IMG/VR virus record: IMGVR_UViG_3300025168_000162
Coordinates: 1-45,002 of that record
Direction: 5' to 3' (one strand)
Length of the DNA stretch: 45,002 bases
Source of the DNA: a virus
Below, one piece after another: positions 25,559-37,947 of the stretch. Position 1 is the stretch's first letter; the number at the start of each line of letters is the position of its first letter. The position numbers and the translations under genes were made by a program. The notes under the pieces are model-generated. The model saw only the letters and a program-made list of their open reading frames with translations, was not told the DNA's origin and did not search any database.

Positions 25559-28141
25559 TTAACATCTCCCATCGTGATCATTTTCCGCAGAAAACAGGAA
25601 TAGAGTTCTATCTTCATTATTCTCTTTTCTGGGTGCTGGGCTAGCATTGTCGGTAATATCTGGTCGATCTTCAATGTCATCCCTTTCTATGTTTGTATAC
25701 ACAACTGTGGAGTTTCCATCTTCATCTTCTCCAGATTCCTGATATGACAAATCTAGTGTGGTTCCACCAAATATATTTGGTAAGTTGCTTGTTCCAATAA
25801 TTTTATTAAGCAACCCAACGACCATGATATCAGCCGAACCAGTTATTCCTGCTGGTCCGGTATAGCCGGTAACACCAGATGTATCTTGCAGTGTTCTAAT
25901 TTCCTGAAGTCCAGTTTCTCGGTGACTTGTCATATTAACAACACTACCCATATACGTTGCGGGAATATCTAATAATTGATCGTTTAGTCCAGAAGTCATT
26001 CCACCTATAGGCATCAACCCAAAACCATCTGGATAATTTCGTCCCATCACATTAACACCAGCGTTTGTGTGGGCTTTATTATTAGTAAATTCATTTGTAT
26101 TGTATGCAGTAAATAGTCCCCGTTTTCCGCCACGAACTGGAACAACAAGCATGTCAGTTTCTTGGGAGATATTGTATTGTGCGTCATTAATTTCTTTTGT
26201 TAAGCCAAAAGTAAATGTTATTCCGGGCAGAGTTTCTTCTCCGGCAGAATTGCCAGCAATGAAAATCATGTGCTCACCCGAAGACGGATTTATGTTTTTT
26301 TCCTTAATGTAATCATAGTATGTTACTTCATCAGAAACTCCGGATCCTACAACAAGATCATTTGCACTAACTCCCCGGGGAATGAGAGCGTCTGGCCATG
26401 CTTCAACTTCTACAAACGAATAGCGGTAGAAGTTGGACATAGTTTCTCCAGAAAGTCCGAATGGAATTATATTTGGATCTCCTGTAGCTCCCCCTGTATA
26501 TCCAACAAGAAGTGCCATAAAATTATCTGGTGCAGAAGAATTGCAACATATGGAATATCGATACCGATTCCACTGCTCCTTGAGATCTCTAAGAACTGTA
26601 TATGCAAGTTTTGCTCTTCTGGCAGGTTTTCTATAATTCTCCACAAGATAACGAATTCCCATTTGTCCGGTTTGGTCATTATATTCTAAAGGCAATTCTG
26701 TCATATCAAACATTGTTTGCCACATATAATGCTGACCACGAGCAGAGCCGTAATCATCTACAATGGTGGGAACTGGTTTATTTAAATATCGTTCATCAAA
26801 ATAACCATACACCGGATCGACCAAGCTGCTATAACTTGGGTTTGTTGCAGAATATGATAATTTAGATCCTAGTAGGGGTCCAATAGTTTCATTTTCATCT
26901 TCCTCCTCACCAGAATTTATGAACAAATCCGAATAGTTGTAAACAACTTCATCTGATAATAGGTGGGTAGAAATACTCATAAAATCATGGTAATATGCAT
27001 TTTGCTTTGCACCAACAATACTATTATTATATGCTAAGGCGAAGCTATCGTCTTCACTCGACTCTGGGTTTATTCCGTTATAAATTCCTCTCCAGCTTGG
27101 TTCAATTAATGTGTATTTTGATCCCAAAGAACCAGATTCTTCTAGATCCAATATATCTCCAGATCTAACTAATTTAAAACTTTCAGCCCTTTGATATACG
27201 TTTTCGTCCATGGTAAATGTATAGTCATGATAACCAACTCCCTCTGTACCATTGATCCAATTTTTACCATACAACCCTGACTGACCACCAATGGGAGTAA
27301 AGTGCCATTGTCCTTGTGGCATTGACTGGTAAAAGACATATGATGGATTGTTCTCTTCGGGCACACCTCTACTCACGACAGATCCGTCATCATCGGTTTC
27401 AAACCCTGCTGCTGGAATCGCATAGTTTAAAGATGCCGTCAATAACTTATTAATGCTTGGTGAATTTGTTTCTTTGCCCCATGGGTATAGTGATTGTCTT
27501 CTCTTAAACCAAGCACCATTATAGGTTTCTACAATTTCTGGTTCTACTTGAGTTGTGTTTGAAATTCCAAATTCGCTCGCATCACTTTCAGAATCTGGTT
27601 CTGGTGTTGGTGCCATTAATCCTGTTTTATCGCTAGATGTAAGCTCACTAACAAATTCACTGATTCTTCCTACATAATCCTCAGATTCTATAAGGGGGAA
27701 GTCCTGATAATTCAGGGATGAACTTTCATATGATGCAAATTCTAATCTGAATGTTGCTGACTGAGAAGATCCTAAGTTTACTGTTCCCGGAGCAATGTTA
27801 GAAACTACCGAAACATTGTAGACATAGAATTCAAGAGCATCAGCCAAATGTTCTCGACTTTCTTCGTCCATTGTAGAAAAAGAAAGCCGAATCATAGAAC
27901 CACTCTTTGCGAGGGATGCTATGGGCGGTAAAGCACCATCAGACTCTGCAAGGTCTGGGTTTGGGTCGTTGAGTATTACAAACCCATTCAGCCCACGCTG
28001 GAATATTCCTTCATTTATAGACATTCCTCCAAAAACACTTGATGCCTGGAAATTGTCAACAATGTTGACATACTCGATTTCGCCTTTTGGTTTTATTGAT
28101 ATTTCATAAAATGTAACATCATTTATACTTGCTCTAGCCAT
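25559..28141 (-). CDS. Putative baseplate hub protein (gp27-like N-terminus), 860 aa
   Basis: The N-terminal 170 residues (ASSVFGGMSINEGIFQRGLNG, then ILNDPNPD and TFRLEFASYES) have the pattern of hub proteins that begin the gp27-type beta-barrel, in which an early loop carries 'xxNEGxxxxxxFxIxD'. The remaining 700 residues are mixed alpha/beta with no catalytic motif recognised; no lysozyme domain is evident. It follows gp53 and precedes the hub-associated gene and gp25, so a central baseplate role is inferred. Confidence 0.6.
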   Translation of the reverse strand: MARASINDVTFYEISIKPKGEIEYVNIVDNFQASSVFGGMSINEGIFQRGLNGFVILNDPNPDLAESDGALPPIASLAKSGSMIRLSFSTMDEESREHLADALEFYVYNVSVVSNIAPGTVNLGSSQSATFRLEFASYESSSLNYQDFPLIESEDYVGRISEFVSELTSSDKTGLMAPTPEPDSESDASEFGISNTTQVEPEIVETYNGAWFKRRQSLYPWGKETNSPSINKLLTASLNYAIPAAGFETDDDGSVVSRGVPEENNPSYVFYQSMPQGQWHFTPIGGQSGLYGKNWINGTEGVGYHDYTFTMDENVYQRAESFKLVRSGDILDLEESGSLGSKYTLIEPSWRGIYNGINPESSEDDSFALAYNNSIVGAKQNAYYHDFMSISTHLLSDEVVYNYSDLFINSGEEEDENETIGPLLGSKLSYSATNPSYSSLVDPVYGYFDERYLNKPVPTIVDDYGSARGQHYMWQTMFDMTELPLEYNDQTGQMGIRYLVENYRKPARRAKLAYTVLRDLKEQWNRYRYSICCNSSAPDNFMALLVGYTGGATGDPNIIPFGLSGETMSNFYRYSFVEVEAWPDALIPRGVSANDLVVGSGVSDEVTYYDYIKEKNINPSSGEHMIFIAGNSAGEETLPGITFTFGLTKEINDAQYNISQETDMLVVPVRGGKRGLFTAYNTNEFTNNKAHTNAGVNVMGRNYPDGFGLMPIGGMTSGLNDQLLDIPATYMGSVVNMTSHRETGLQEIRTLQDTSGVTGYTGPAGITGSADIMVVGLLNKIIGTSNLPNIFGGTTLDLSYQESGEDEDGNSTVVYTNIERDDIEDRPDITDNASPAPRKENNEDRTLFLFSAENDHDGRC

Positions 28142-31019: not shown

Positions 31020-31667
31020 ATGACTACAATTACATTACCCGTCTACCAGACAAAATTGCCTGTATCCGGCAGGTCTGTGGAATTTTCTCCGCTCATTGTT
31101 AAGGAAGAGAAAATTATAAGTGCAGCAAAAGATACTGGATCAAAAGAAGATTCATATTTAACATTCCTAAAAATATTAGAAAATAAAATTGATGTCAACC
31201 TTTCATCTCTATGCGAAACTGATTTAGTTCATTGTATGATTGAGTTAAGAAAACGATCTATTGGAGAAACAGTAAAGTTTGCCTTTACTTGTCCACACAC
31301 AAAGGAATCGGTAACAATTGAAACTGATTGCAATGATATTAAACTATCCGGATCTAAGATGTCTAGCACAATACACATTGATGGATACAATGTAAAAATT
31401 CATGTGCCTAAAAAGATAGGAAATATTGCATCAGCAATAGAATCAATTCAGACACCAGCAGAAATTATAAGTTTTAAGGAACTGTCTGATGATCAAAAGA
31501 ATGATATTGTTGACAGCTTATCGATAAAAATAAAAAACTGTATAGAAGAAGAGTGTGCAGAATTATTTAATTATAATCACACAATGAATTATTTTACTGC
31601 TAATATTGAAAGAAAATTGACCCTACGGAGCGCAGAGGATTTTTTTACATTATTTTTTGTCATGTAA
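31020..31667 (+). CDS. 26: Tail/baseplate hub assembly chaperone gp26
   Basis: The 215 residues match the gp26 family pattern: LPVYQTKLPVSGRSVEFSPLIVKEEKII at the N-terminus, then FKELSDDQKNDIVDSLS. In T4 gp26 is required for hub assembly; in other tailed phages the protein at this place is the first tail assembly chaperone. The last codons contain a seven-T slippery run (31640-31646) in phase for a -1 slip, and the -1 frame stays open through the next ORF. The normal product would end FFTLFFVM. Confidence 0.82.
   Translation: MTTITLPVYQTKLPVSGRSVEFSPLIVKEEKIISAAKDTGSKEDSYLTFLKILENKIDVNLSSLCETDLVHCMIELRKRSIGETVKFAFTCPHTKESVTIETDCNDIKLSGSKMSSTIHIDGYNVKIHVPKKIGNIASAIESIQTPAEIISFKELSDDQKNDIVDSLSIKIKNCIEEECAELFNYNHTMNYFTANIERKLTLRSAEDFFTLFFVM
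31640..31646 (+). other. Candidate -1 ribosomal frameshift site (T TTT TTT)
   Basis: Seven Ts read in the gp26 frame as T TTT TTT followed by ACA, a perfect X XXY YYZ heptamer. A -1 slip continues TAC ATT ATT TTT TGT and stays open to 31846. The downstream ORF has no ribosome binding site of its own. Frameshifted tail chaperone pairs are conserved among tailed phages (lambda G/GT). Confidence 0.6.
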
Positions 31668-31699
31668 ATCTGCCAAGTTTTTATTACTTAAATTTCCAG

Positions 31700-31846
31700 A
31701 TGATGCACATGTACGGATACAGTTTAGATGAATTAGAAAGTATGATTCCATGGGAAAGAAAGATCTACTTGGGAATGCTAAATGCATTCATAACTGAAGA
31801 AAACTTAAAGACACAACAAAAAATGGCTAATAAAGGAATGCTCTAA
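31700..31846 (+). CDS. Second tail assembly chaperone segment (gp51-like position), probably made by frameshift
   Basis: From the first ATG the ORF encodes 48 residues beginning MMHMYGYSLDELESMIPWER and continuing KIYLGMLNAFITEENLK; the IPWER-x-IY-x(2)-L pattern is typical of short hub or tail chaperones in marine T4-like phages. The same frame is open upstream to within gp26 and would add CHVNLPSFYYLNFQ before the first ATG, which also looks like protein. No Shine-Dalgarno precedes the ATG codons. Expression as a gp26 fusion through the 31640 slip site is therefore the likeliest route. The stop overlaps the next ATG (TAATG). Confidence 0.65.
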   Translation: MMHMYGYSLDELESMIPWERKIYLGMLNAFITEENLKTQQKMANKGML

Positions 31847-32331
31847 TGGCAGAAGAAAATAAAAAATCAGATACAGAAACATCAATGTCAGATCTAGCTG
31901 CTGATCTAAAAGTAAGTCCATCAGTAAATGCAAGCGATCTTATGCCAAATACAAACAATATACCTGCAAATATTAGTTCTGTTGAAAGAGAACTATTAAT
32001 GCCAACCGAGGAAATTGGTGGAGTTTCATCAAAAACTGTTGATCAAGTAATCATTAACAATAATACTAAACACCATGACATAGAATCAGAATTGCGAGTG
32101 AGTGCTGCCGCAATTGGAGGTCAACCAATTTCTCAAACACCAAATGACTTTAGATCACGTAGTCCTGAACTTTCTACCACCATTCCAGCAGGATTTCCAA
32201 ACGAAATGGATACAGAAAAGTTGCCCCCAAACATGTCAGGGGCAACTCCTCCGCCTTCTCGTGGACTTAGCAGTCTGAGAAGCACTTCCGCAGATATAAA
32301 AAGCGGCGGAAACAGATATGGGTTTTCTTGA
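31846..32331 (+). CDS. Disordered protein at the tape-measure position (161 aa)
   Basis: The protein is rich in Ser, Asn, Pro and Thr, has no predicted globular core, and ends GGNRYGFS. It follows the tail chaperones, where phages usually encode the tape-measure protein, but it is far too short and not coiled coil. It may be a hub-associated factor or a remnant of a longer gene. Its stop directly abuts the convergent gp32 stop with no spacer. I cannot assign a function. Confidence 0.55.
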   Translation: MAEENKKSDTETSMSDLAADLKVSPSVNASDLMPNTNNIPANISSVERELLMPTEEIGGVSSKTVDQVIINNNTKHHDIESELRVSAAAIGGQPISQTPNDFRSRSPELSTTIPAGFPNEMDTEKLPPNMSGATPPPSRGLSSLRSTSADIKSGGNRYGFS

Positions 32332-34547: not shown

Positions 34548-35723
34548 ATGTCAACACCAATAGAACGATACCATAGAAGCAGTCCGGCACCTAGCTTTTT
34601 TATACAAGATCTGGGAACGGCTGCATTCTTTGGTCTAGAATTTATTGATACAGCAGAAGATTTAGTTTTTCCAGACCAAAATTTATCGACAAGACCATCT
34701 ATATTGATTGAAGGATCAAAGATGGTGATTGATTATTCTGATTCTGGTGTGGCAAAAGATAGAGATTTTATACAAACTCAATTTTCATCAATGACAGGTG
34801 GAAATGGATTCACTCTAACTAATGCAATCTATAGTGATGTTGTGAATAGTTACGAAGCTGATTTGGCTGCTTCTTGTACATTAAATAGCTATACTGATTT
34901 TAAAATTCTAGCTACTTATTCTACAATAGGAAGTACAACAGAAACAAATTACTATCATTCAGAATATTTCGAAACCATCCCACAGATTTCCAGTGCAATA
35001 GGACTTACGTCTGGCGTAACACTGAACCAATTAATAAATTACCCAACTGGAAATGATACAAGTTTTGTATCTAGCAATATTTCGGTTGGAGATTACTTAG
35101 ATATTTCTACATCATCAAATGATGGTAGATTTACTATTATGGGTGTGACGGTTGATAATTTTTCTCGCGAAATTATAACTCTGAAATCTGATATTATAAT
35201 TTCTACAGAAGATCTAAAAGGAACTGAAGTTGTAGTTGGTCATAAGAGAAAAGTATATTTGGACACAGAAAATCCATATAATCTAAATCAAACAATAGTT
35301 CATTATGTGAGTGATGCTGTTAGTGATACTGGAGTTGCCCAGTTTGTGGTTGATGGTACTATACAGAGAGATTTGGTATTGTTTAGAGGAAATCAATATA
35401 TCTTTATTGAAAATTCATATAGCACATATCCAATGTCATTCTCCATAACCCCGGATGGTAGTAATTCTGGTGGTAGTGCCTATGCAGATATTGGATTCTA
35501 TACAATGTTTGATTCTTCCTTGGGTAAGAGAATGGCTATTGTAGTACCCAACAACAATACACCAAATCAATTATATTACTTCTGTCAAAATTCAAGTGGT
35601 ATGGGTGGAGGAGTCCGAGTTGTTGGTAATTATACTCACACAAACTCACCCGCAACAATATCAACCAATGTTAACCGAGCAACAACAAACTCTGCAACAG
35701 TATCCAGTAGAATAGTATACTAA
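34548..35723 (+). CDS. Structural protein with a degenerate cupredoxin-like domain
   Basis: The 391-residue protein begins MSTPIERYHRSSPAPSFF. Residues about 273-355 follow the cupredoxin-like domain seen in marine phage virion proteins: RDLVLFRGNQYIF, PMSFSITPDGS and LYYFCQNSSGMGGG. In the usual pattern the end reads C-x-x-H-x-x-M; here Cys346 and Met352 remain but the His is replaced by Ser (QNSSGM), and the first His is absent (TYPMSF). Copper binding is therefore doubtful. No clear ribosome binding site. Its stop overlaps the convergent protease gene by four bases. Confidence 0.6.
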   Translation: MSTPIERYHRSSPAPSFFIQDLGTAAFFGLEFIDTAEDLVFPDQNLSTRPSILIEGSKMVIDYSDSGVAKDRDFIQTQFSSMTGGNGFTLTNAIYSDVVNSYEADLAASCTLNSYTDFKILATYSTIGSTTETNYYHSEYFETIPQISSAIGLTSGVTLNQLINYPTGNDTSFVSSNISVGDYLDISTSSNDGRFTIMGVTVDNFSREIITLKSDIIISTEDLKGTEVVVGHKRKVYLDTENPYNLNQTIVHYVSDAVSDTGVAQFVVDGTIQRDLVLFRGNQYIFIENSYSTYPMSFSITPDGSNSGGSAYADIGFYTMFDSSLGKRMAIVVPNNNTPNQLYYFCQNSSGMGGGVRVVGNYTHTNSPATISTNVNRATTNSATVSSRIVY

Positions 35724-37402
35724 GCGATTGTTATAGACTGTCCAGCTACTGCTCTTACCGAGTCATACGCATTGCTTGCATCCACAGTTACTACAATTAA
35801 CGTGTCACCTGCTTCTGCTTCTGCGGGTATTGTCATTGTGAAGCTATCACCAGAAAAAGTTGCGGTGAGTGGTGTATAACTAAACCCAACACCTACGGCA
35901 TTCACAGTGCTATTTCCCCTATCCGGCATCATGGTCCATCCAGCAAATGTTCCGGTTATTGTATCTCCCGGAGAGGGTGACGTATCGTTAAACGAAAACG
36001 AATCGAATGTTGGACCAAATCCCCGCTTCTGTATTAAAGTGGAACCAATTGGATAATATTTGTTCGGGTCACCAGTTCTACCAAATATATTTTCGGAGTA
36101 AACAGATACGTTCATCGAAGCTCCAGAAACTCCATCTGGAATATTCAACCCCATTGTTGATATGGATGATGCAAGCACGGAACCACTAATTCCAGCATTA
36201 TTTAGAGTTGGTCCAAATACAATATTGGTAAACAATGTCGTGGGAGGAAATGTATCCTCGAATGCGTCATCACAATCAACTTCCCATAAAAGCTGTGTGC
36301 CTTCGTGGAAACTATTATTGGTAAATATGTTACTTATTATAAAATTACCATCAAAATCAAGATCGGGTGGAGCATTACCAGAAATTGCCGCAAATGCTGA
36401 TGTGCTCTTTTTTGTTGTGTCATCTCCACGTATAGCAGTAACCTCACACACTATTTCTTTGGCATTCATACTAGTGGATGGTGTGTACTGTTCTTCGGTT
36501 GACATGATCAAAGCATCTTTAACTTTGGTTGCACCGCCAAGATCAGCAGGAGTTAACCATTCTATTTCATATCCACCGTTATCAGCTAAAAGTTGATTTA
36601 ATTCATTCTTTAAACTAATATATCTCCCCACCGTGTTGGACATTATGGGATAATCGCTACCCATCGACACTGGACCAACAAATACCGTTCCATGCACTGG
36701 ATCGTGAATAAACACCGGAGAACCACTGTCTCCGGAAAACGTAAGAGCATTTTTGTATATGTCATCGTCTGGTGAGATTAGTCCGGTGGATAGTCGTATG
36801 TTCCCACTATTTTCAATATATGCAGGTTGAACTTGACCATTTGATGATAGCGTAAACGTTGCTGTTCCTTGTTCAAACAGAGTGTCGCCAGTTTCATCCA
36901 GAATTTTATTATAGATTTTCACATCTGGATCTGTTATTGGTGAGGTCAATTCAAACAAAGCCCAATCACCCCTTTCAAATCCAGCACCCAGTTCAGCAAT
37001 TACGTTCGGATTGAATTCCTGTGTAACAAGTTCTCCATTCTTTTTGAAGAATCCCATAACATTAGTACCGAAACCGTATTGGCTACTGAAATATCCTGCA
37101 AGGTGGCCAGCAGTTACGAAATGTTTTGGTGATATTAAAGCACCGGGCCAGATTATTGAATTATATTGTGATATAGAGGTGACATCTCTTACGAGTCCGG
37201 GGGGATACTCACCAGTATAAATGCTACCATATCTTCTATTTCTTACGCTGCATCCAGATAAGTCTAAAAATGAAAAGTCACAATCAGGATTTATTCCAGT
37301 GCATGTAGCGAAAAATCCAGAATCGGCTTCCGTTGGGGTTCCGTTGAAGTCCCCATACGTATAGTAATCTAATCTTGATGTGTCAGGCATTAAAAATAAC
37401 AT
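35720..37402 (-). CDS. Trypsin-like serine protease fused to beta-sandwich domains
   Basis: The protein (560 residues from the ATG at 37402) carries a complete chymotrypsin-fold triad: His100 in FVTAGHLAG, Asp146 in GDWALFEL and Ser227 in FSGDSGSPVFI. The protease domain covers about residues 50-300; the rest is beta-rich with Ig-like character and no membrane segment. The ATG at 37402 is preceded by TAAGGTC, which also contains the stop of the preceding gene; a longer frame from 37453 would overlap that gene and lacks a ribosome binding site. No signal peptide is evident, so it is probably a virion or lysis-stage protein. Target unknown. Confidence 0.72.
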   Translation of the reverse strand: MLFLMPDTSRLDYYTYGDFNGTPTEADSGFFATCTGINPDCDFSFLDLSGCSVRNRRYGSIYTGEYPPGLVRDVTSISQYNSIIWPGALISPKHFVTAGHLAGYFSSQYGFGTNVMGFFKKNGELVTQEFNPNVIAELGAGFERGDWALFELTSPITDPDVKIYNKILDETGDTLFEQGTATFTLSSNGQVQPAYIENSGNIRLSTGLISPDDDIYKNALTFSGDSGSPVFIHDPVHGTVFVGPVSMGSDYPIMSNTVGRYISLKNELNQLLADNGGYEIEWLTPADLGGATKVKDALIMSTEEQYTPSTSMNAKEIVCEVTAIRGDDTTKKSTSAFAAISGNAPPDLDFDGNFIISNIFTNNSFHEGTQLLWEVDCDDAFEDTFPPTTLFTNIVFGPTLNNAGISGSVLASSISTMGLNIPDGVSGASMNVSVYSENIFGRTGDPNKYYPIGSTLIQKRGFGPTFDSFSFNDTSPSPGDTITGTFAGWTMMPDRGNSTVNAVGVGFSYTPLTATFSGDSFTMTIPAEAEAGDTLIVVTVDASNAYDSVRAVAGQSITIA

Positions 37403-37410
37403 AGTTGACC

Positions 37411-37947
37411 TTACGTGGTGATGTTTGGATTGACCGCCCCAGTATACGACCATTTAAATGATAATGTTGCACTTACACCACCACACATAACTACTGTTGG
37501 AACTATAGTTTCTGTTCCATCAGCACTTGGCACTGGTGGGCTGAGTGTTATGTTGCATATTGAAAATCCACTAGAACCACTATCATAATCATATATTGCA
37601 TCACCAAGAGCAACTAGTGTTGAATATTTGTGATACTCCTGAACAGACAGTTCTTCCAATGTATCAATATTGATAAATTTATTTTTCTTGGAATCAAAAA
37701 CCCATCGGCTTCCATTGCGTAGAGTAATTATGTTTGATGGTAACTCGACTTCGGGACGTTCAGCTTCTCGTTCCCTATACGAAAGCTGTTGCTCTAGCAG
37801 AACCTGTTGTTTCTCTATATTTTCCCTATAGAACTTGGTAGAATTTTCTATAGATTCCTGTGTTCTAGTAGATCGAACTAGGTGATTTGGTAAAATAGGA
37901 GAAGCGCCCAGTTTTTTTGCAAAATTATTTACAGATCGTTTTGACAT
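37411..37947 (-). CDS. Hypothetical protein upstream of the protease
   Basis: The 178 residues have a basic, helical N-terminus (RSVNNFAKKLGASPIL, then a coiled-coil-like ENIEKQQVLLEQQLSYRERE) and a beta-rich C-terminal half (VVMCGGVSATLSFKWSYTGA). It ends eight bases before the protease ATG and begins three bases after the preceding stop, so it belongs to the same operon. No family recognised; a linker or chaperone for the protease protein is possible. Confidence 0.55.
   Translation of the reverse strand: MSKRSVNNFAKKLGASPILPNHLVRSTRTQESIENSTKFYRENIEKQQVLLEQQLSYREREAERPEVELPSNIITLRNGSRWVFDSKKNKFINIDTLEELSVQEYHKYSTLVALGDAIYDYDSGSSGFSICNITLSPPVPSADGTETIVPTVVMCGGVSATLSFKWSYTGAVNPNITT

Follow-up and report, generated by a model that had tools for sequence, protein, structure and literature searches.

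Evidence for a -1 frameshift linking gp26 to a gp51-type C-terminal domain in a T4-type phage tail assembly chaperone gene

Introduction

Is the small open reading frame (ORF) that overlaps the end of gp26 in T4-type phages a gene of its own, or is it the second part of gp26, reached by a -1 frameshift? This question is raised by the IMG/VR virus record IMGVR_UViG_3300025168_000162, of which positions 1 to 45,002 were analysed (the window, 45,002 nucleotides at its full length). A sequence-only reading had suggested that a frameshift near the end of gp26 would fuse this predicted tail assembly chaperone (TAC) to the small downstream ORF. Following comparison with related phages, we consider, with a probability of about 0.93, that gp26 and the small ORF form one gene, which would give a short and a long chaperone through -1 slippage on T_TTT_TTT. 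The comparison strongly supports the predicted fusion, and the frameshift is, with high probability, real.

Results

The 0-frame codons at the 3' end of gp26 read CTA CGG AGC GCA GAG GAT TTT TTT ACA TTA TTT TTT GTC ATG TAA, with the stop codon at 31665-31667, and the heptamer T_TTT_TTT is present in phase, as had been claimed. The -1 frame is indeed open across the slip and to the end of the small ORF, and it reaches its first ATG, at 31700, without any intervening start codon. That this ATG lacks a ribosome binding site was also borne out, as no purine-rich Shine-Dalgarno (SD) sequence was found ahead of ATG 31700, 31703 or 31709 (tttattacttaaatttccag). The homology of the -1 product nevertheless starts 17 codons upstream of ATG 31700, that is, at the slip. 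Its match to phrog_634 ('baseplate hub assembly catalyst', which is the cyanophage gp51) runs from residue 3 of the latter, and most of the best among 473 tblastn matches to phage records start at residue 2. The predicted fusion of gp26 to this C-domain has 275 residues. Runs of seven T are no commoner in the window than expected by chance (23 observed versus 35 expected), and therefore the case for frameshifting rests on comparison.

A search of viral contigs with gp26 as the only query found no relatives, and an alignment that mixed distant members was too weakly conserved to serve as a query. Loci for the survey were therefore those reached with the C-domain as seed, 123 in all, namely 19 named phages, 103 IMG/VR loci and the window; T4-type phages having a full-length gp51 are accordingly outside this count. 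The named set comprises Kyanoviridae cyanophages, the Pelagibacter phages Mosig and HTVC008M, Sinorhizobium phage phiM19, Agrobacterium phage Atu_ph04, Caulobacter phage Cr30, Nitratidesulfovibrio phage SRB7757 and Aeromonas phage AsFcp_2. Identity of the window gp26 is 45-50% to the nearest contigs and about 18-25% to the others. In 123/123 loci the C-domain is encoded in the -1 frame relative to gp26, and every one of them carries an in-phase heptamer at the junction (T TTT TTC in 95, T TTT TTT in 22 and T TTT TTA in 6). Conservation in relatives of both the heptamer and the -1 relation, which had been proposed as the check, was thus observed throughout. Outside the 123, the Straboviridae phages Aeh1 and 65 have the same -1 relation and a junction heptamer of the form T_TTT_TT[C/T/A].

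To look for selection on the slip site, redundancy was removed at 85% identity, leaving 103 sites. The first six bases of the heptamer (T TTT TT) are invariant and only the seventh varies, the codon at the second Phe position being TTC in 87, TTT in 13 and TTA in 3; the bases needed for re-pairing are therefore fixed and the dispensable one is free. The codon preceding the first Phe is AGT, GAT, AAT, TCT, GCT or GGT and never ends in C, A or G, compared with a background T-ending use of 36-81% for these residues, and the first Phe codon is always TTT, against 72% in the background. The naive chance of these two outcomes is about 1e-20 and 1e-14 respectively, in a calculation that ignores shared ancestry. 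The motif U_UUU_UUY ranks among the most shift-prone in E. coli (PMC4066793).

A second run at the end of gp26, A_TTT_TTT (31652-31658), was considered as a slip site and dropped, as most near relatives have ACTTTTT there.

Elements of the kind that stimulate frameshifting were found at most sites. In 80 of the 103 sites (78%) the heptamer is preceded at 7-13 nt by an SD-like word of at least four bases, most commonly at a spacing of 10 nt, compared with 10.7% for other in-frame positions within these genes; a small number of these words are weak (TAAG in the L002 clade). In the EG motif, Glu is encoded by GAG in 51/67, whereas other Glu-Gly pairs in these genes use it in 10/67 (p=7e-13). Downstream, the 60 bases after the heptamer gave a mean folding z of -2.22 against synonymous-codon resamples, with 69% below -1.5, whereas a control region gave -0.09 with 9% below -1.5. 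The stems begin mostly 5-9 nt past the heptamer, close to the distance of 5-8 nt between slip and stem given for -1 frameshifts (PMC4066793).

The idea of a single hairpin common to all phages was abandoned, since the stems fall in several registers (40, 39, 36 and 52), and covariation was assessed within registers. For the most frequent register, 95.7% of cells are paired, versus at most 43% when slid, a comparison that favours the register because its structure was derived from the same sequences, and one pair is seen as UA, GC and AU, which is compensatory. Covariation is good for register 40 and only suggestive for register 39. Cyanophage loci show stable hairpins after the slip in differing registers, of up to 14 bp in S-PM2 (L045:1489-1523).

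Table 1. Positions of the predicted chaperone gene, its slip site and adjoining features in the window
Feature	Position	Strand	Basis or remark
gp26, short tail assembly chaperone (TAC-N), 215 aa	31020..31667	+	PF12322 T4_baseplate E=2.7e-25; phrog_150 E=3.6e-26; AlphaFold predicted local distance difference test (pLDDT) 93.6
Open -1 frame, stop to stop; TAC C-domain ('gp51') from slip (31640) to 31843	31610..31846	+	phrog_634 E=1.4e-18; homology from residue 2 after slip
GGAG, possible SD-like stimulator	31627..31630	+	9 nt upstream of heptamer; weak; not in nearest relatives
Slippery heptamer T_TTT_TTT, gp26 phase	31640..31646	+	Sequence; T_TTT_TT[C/T/A] in 123/123 related loci
First ATG of -1 frame, inside conserved domain	31700..31702	+	Sequence, no ribosome binding site; conserved residues upstream
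Next gene, 161 aa, no assignment	31846..32331	+	ATG overlaps C-domain stop (TAATG)

In T4 itself, the two forms appear to be supplied by two genes. The gp26 profile matches both T4 gp26 (E=3.9e-23) and T4 gp51 (E=1e-7), and the C-domain profile matches the C-terminus of T4 gp51 (E=2.7e-7). When aligned, T4 gp26 stops at GLKEFF (the GLxxFF motif), where the frameshift phages slip, and T4 gp51 matches the fusion over its full length, continuing through the C-domain. T4 gp26 therefore resembles the short product of the window and T4 gp51 the fusion, although in T4 (L046) they are separate genes on opposite strands, and gene 26 reads GAG TTC TTT at the motif and has no slip heptamer. This reading agrees with that of Vladimirov et al. 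2022 as cited in PMC10885494. Among Straboviridae the arrangement is mixed, with the frameshift plan in Aeh1, 65 and AsFcp_2 and two genes in T4, Aeromonas phage 31 and Thanatos-1.

GenBank records treat the small ORF as a gene in its own right (gp51), which would be translated from its own start or by re-initiation after the gp26 stop. P-SSM2, S-SKS1 and Cr30 (TGATG) do have an ATG just past that stop, and an extra stand-alone C-domain is possible there. However, conserved residues lie upstream of any start, the starts are inconsistent between relatives, and in C48C1 and SRB7757 the C-domain frame has no start codon there at all, so that the conserved start which would have spoken against a frameshift was not seen. 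Together with the lack of an SD at ATG 31700 and an invariant T6 that it leaves unexplained, this makes a separate gene very improbable. An internal non-standard start was also considered: AUU at 31649 lies behind AGAGGA (31634-31639, 9 nt ahead of it) and could yield the C-domain alone, and the annotation of T4 gene 26 includes an in-frame start within the gene, from which gp26' is made (L046:3803-4090, minus strand). The nearest relatives, however, have CTT at this position, which is no start codon, and the arrangement is absent from the cyanophages; we regard this explanation as exceedingly unlikely.

Two further explanations concern the run of T itself. The seven consecutive T in the window might allow the polymerase to slip, giving the fusion by transcriptional slippage, but the run in most relatives is no more than six T and then C, which is short for this, conservation tracks the codon phase, and stimulators of the ribosomal type (SD-like words and hairpins) are found at most sites, which leaves transcriptional slippage highly unlikely. 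Homopolymers are also prone to sequencing error; an error or a decayed gene is refuted by the identical break at the identical place in 123/123 loci, isolate genomes included. Ribosomal frameshifting is the reading to which the conservation of the heptamer and of the -1 relation leads, together with homology that reaches back to the slip with no start codon.

Several results weigh against this reading of the window. Its downstream hairpin is not significant (z -1.44, with 10/100 resamples equally stable), folding in L002, of the same clade, gives z +0.83, and the clade has no GAGG at the 10 nt spacing. No tape measure gene was recognised in the window, including beside the gp26 locus. A Foldseek search of the gp26 model against solved structures gave nothing significant (best E 0.3), HK97 gp13 (2OB9) scoring E 3.4 with a template modelling (TM) score of 0.15; as the chaperones of different phages are highly diverged, the missing fold match is weak evidence. 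The T4-type gp51 model, which is good (pLDDT 87.8), likewise gave no significant match to solved structures.

Beyond the 161-residue ORF lies gp32, on the opposite strand. In HTVC008M and Cr30 a tape measure is annotated a short distance downstream. Elsewhere in the window, an 860-residue protein amid baseplate genes (25559-28141, minus strand) has no PHROG or Pfam match, and a 577-residue protein (35720-37453, minus strand) has a sub-threshold trypsin-like match (Pfam 19.6 bits, cut-off 20.6).

Discussion

Given that the slip signal is present and conserved and that the products are homologous to T4 gp26 and gp51, we infer that slippage occurs at this locus, at a rate that would favour the short form, and that the products act as chaperones. 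Most ribosomes would terminate at 31665-31667 and release the 215-residue short chaperone (TAC-N, gp26), and a minority would slip back one base on T_TTT_TTT (31640-31646), with tRNA-Phe re-pairing with UUU in the P and A sites, and produce the 275-residue TAC-NC (gp26 plus the gp51 C-domain). If the products work as lambda G and GT do, the tape measure protein may be coated by numerous short copies with a few long ones among them, whose C-domain may recruit the tail tube during assembly.

The profiles place the protein in the T4 gp26/gp51 family (PF12322, phrog_150 and phrog_634), and the locus has two features of a G/GT-type gene, an in-frame slippery heptamer (31640-31646 in the window, and in 123/123 loci) and a second domain encoded after it in a -1 frame that stays open across the slip and has no conserved start of its own. 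The likeness to lambda G/GT proposed by the sequence-only reading is supported as far as function is concerned, since T4 gp26 matches the short form and T4 gp51 the long one; the position before the tape measure is not borne out in the window, where no such gene could be recognised beside the locus. The slip site of lambda is G-rich and that of the window a U-run. The tail-assembly role would be shared with lambda G/GT and P2 E/E' (PMC5009743); in the fold search the gp26 model gave no significant match to a solved chaperone of that kind.

Most cyanophage relatives carry the tripartite signal known from E. coli dnaX and from insertion sequence (IS) elements, with an SD-like word about 10 nt upstream, the heptamer and a hairpin 5-9 nt downstream, although the gene and product are different; the window, without a significant hairpin, does not have this signal. 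On balance we lean towards a scheme in which most T4-like chaperone sites use a dnaX-like signal (GAGG at about 10 nt, T_TTT_TTC and a hairpin at 5-9 nt), the window clade, having neither hairpin nor SD at that spacing, relies on the slipperier T_TTT_TTT, and T4 has no slip site and uses two genes instead.

The suspicion that such a frameshift was undescribed at the T4-type gp26 position proved wrong. Chaperones of T4-like phages were identified by Vladimirov, Gautam and Davidson (2022, Virology 566:9-15), as cited in PMC10885494 and PMC12846349, the former crediting that study with the two-gene form and the latter with the slippery poly-T stretches of TAC-N genes in T4-like phages. Compared through these citing papers, the published chaperones share with the window the short and long forms and the poly-T -1 slip in TAC-N, and the window is a divergent uncultivated clade within this already published frameshift type. 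What the present comparison may add is the make-up of the stimulators, further lineages, and a clade, that of the window, in which stimulators appear to be lacking. Frameshifting is reportedly described as conserved in several T4-like groups in the abstract of the 2022 study.

In cyanophage records the C-domain is called a separate 'gp51', with starts that differ (for example L025:1507-1680 and L045:1489-1662), and it is unannotated in S-WAM2, ACG-2014e, DSL-LC03, S-PRM1 and Aeh1; no joined gp26/C-domain coding sequence was present in any annotated record fetched for comparison. Cyanophage gp51 has been described as lacking its first 200 residues, and Aeh1 as lacking gp51 (PMC3037559), both because the frameshift went unrecognised. 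A recurring annotation error is thereby explained, the cyanophage 'gp51' being the C-terminal end of a frameshifted gp26. A 2016 review describes the G-T frameshift as widely conserved 'except T4' (PMC5009743), and this listed exception now fits the common scheme. The mix of plans within the Straboviridae could allow the switch to be mapped onto the phylogeny of the family, and the signal identified here is a concrete RNA element that is open to reporter testing.
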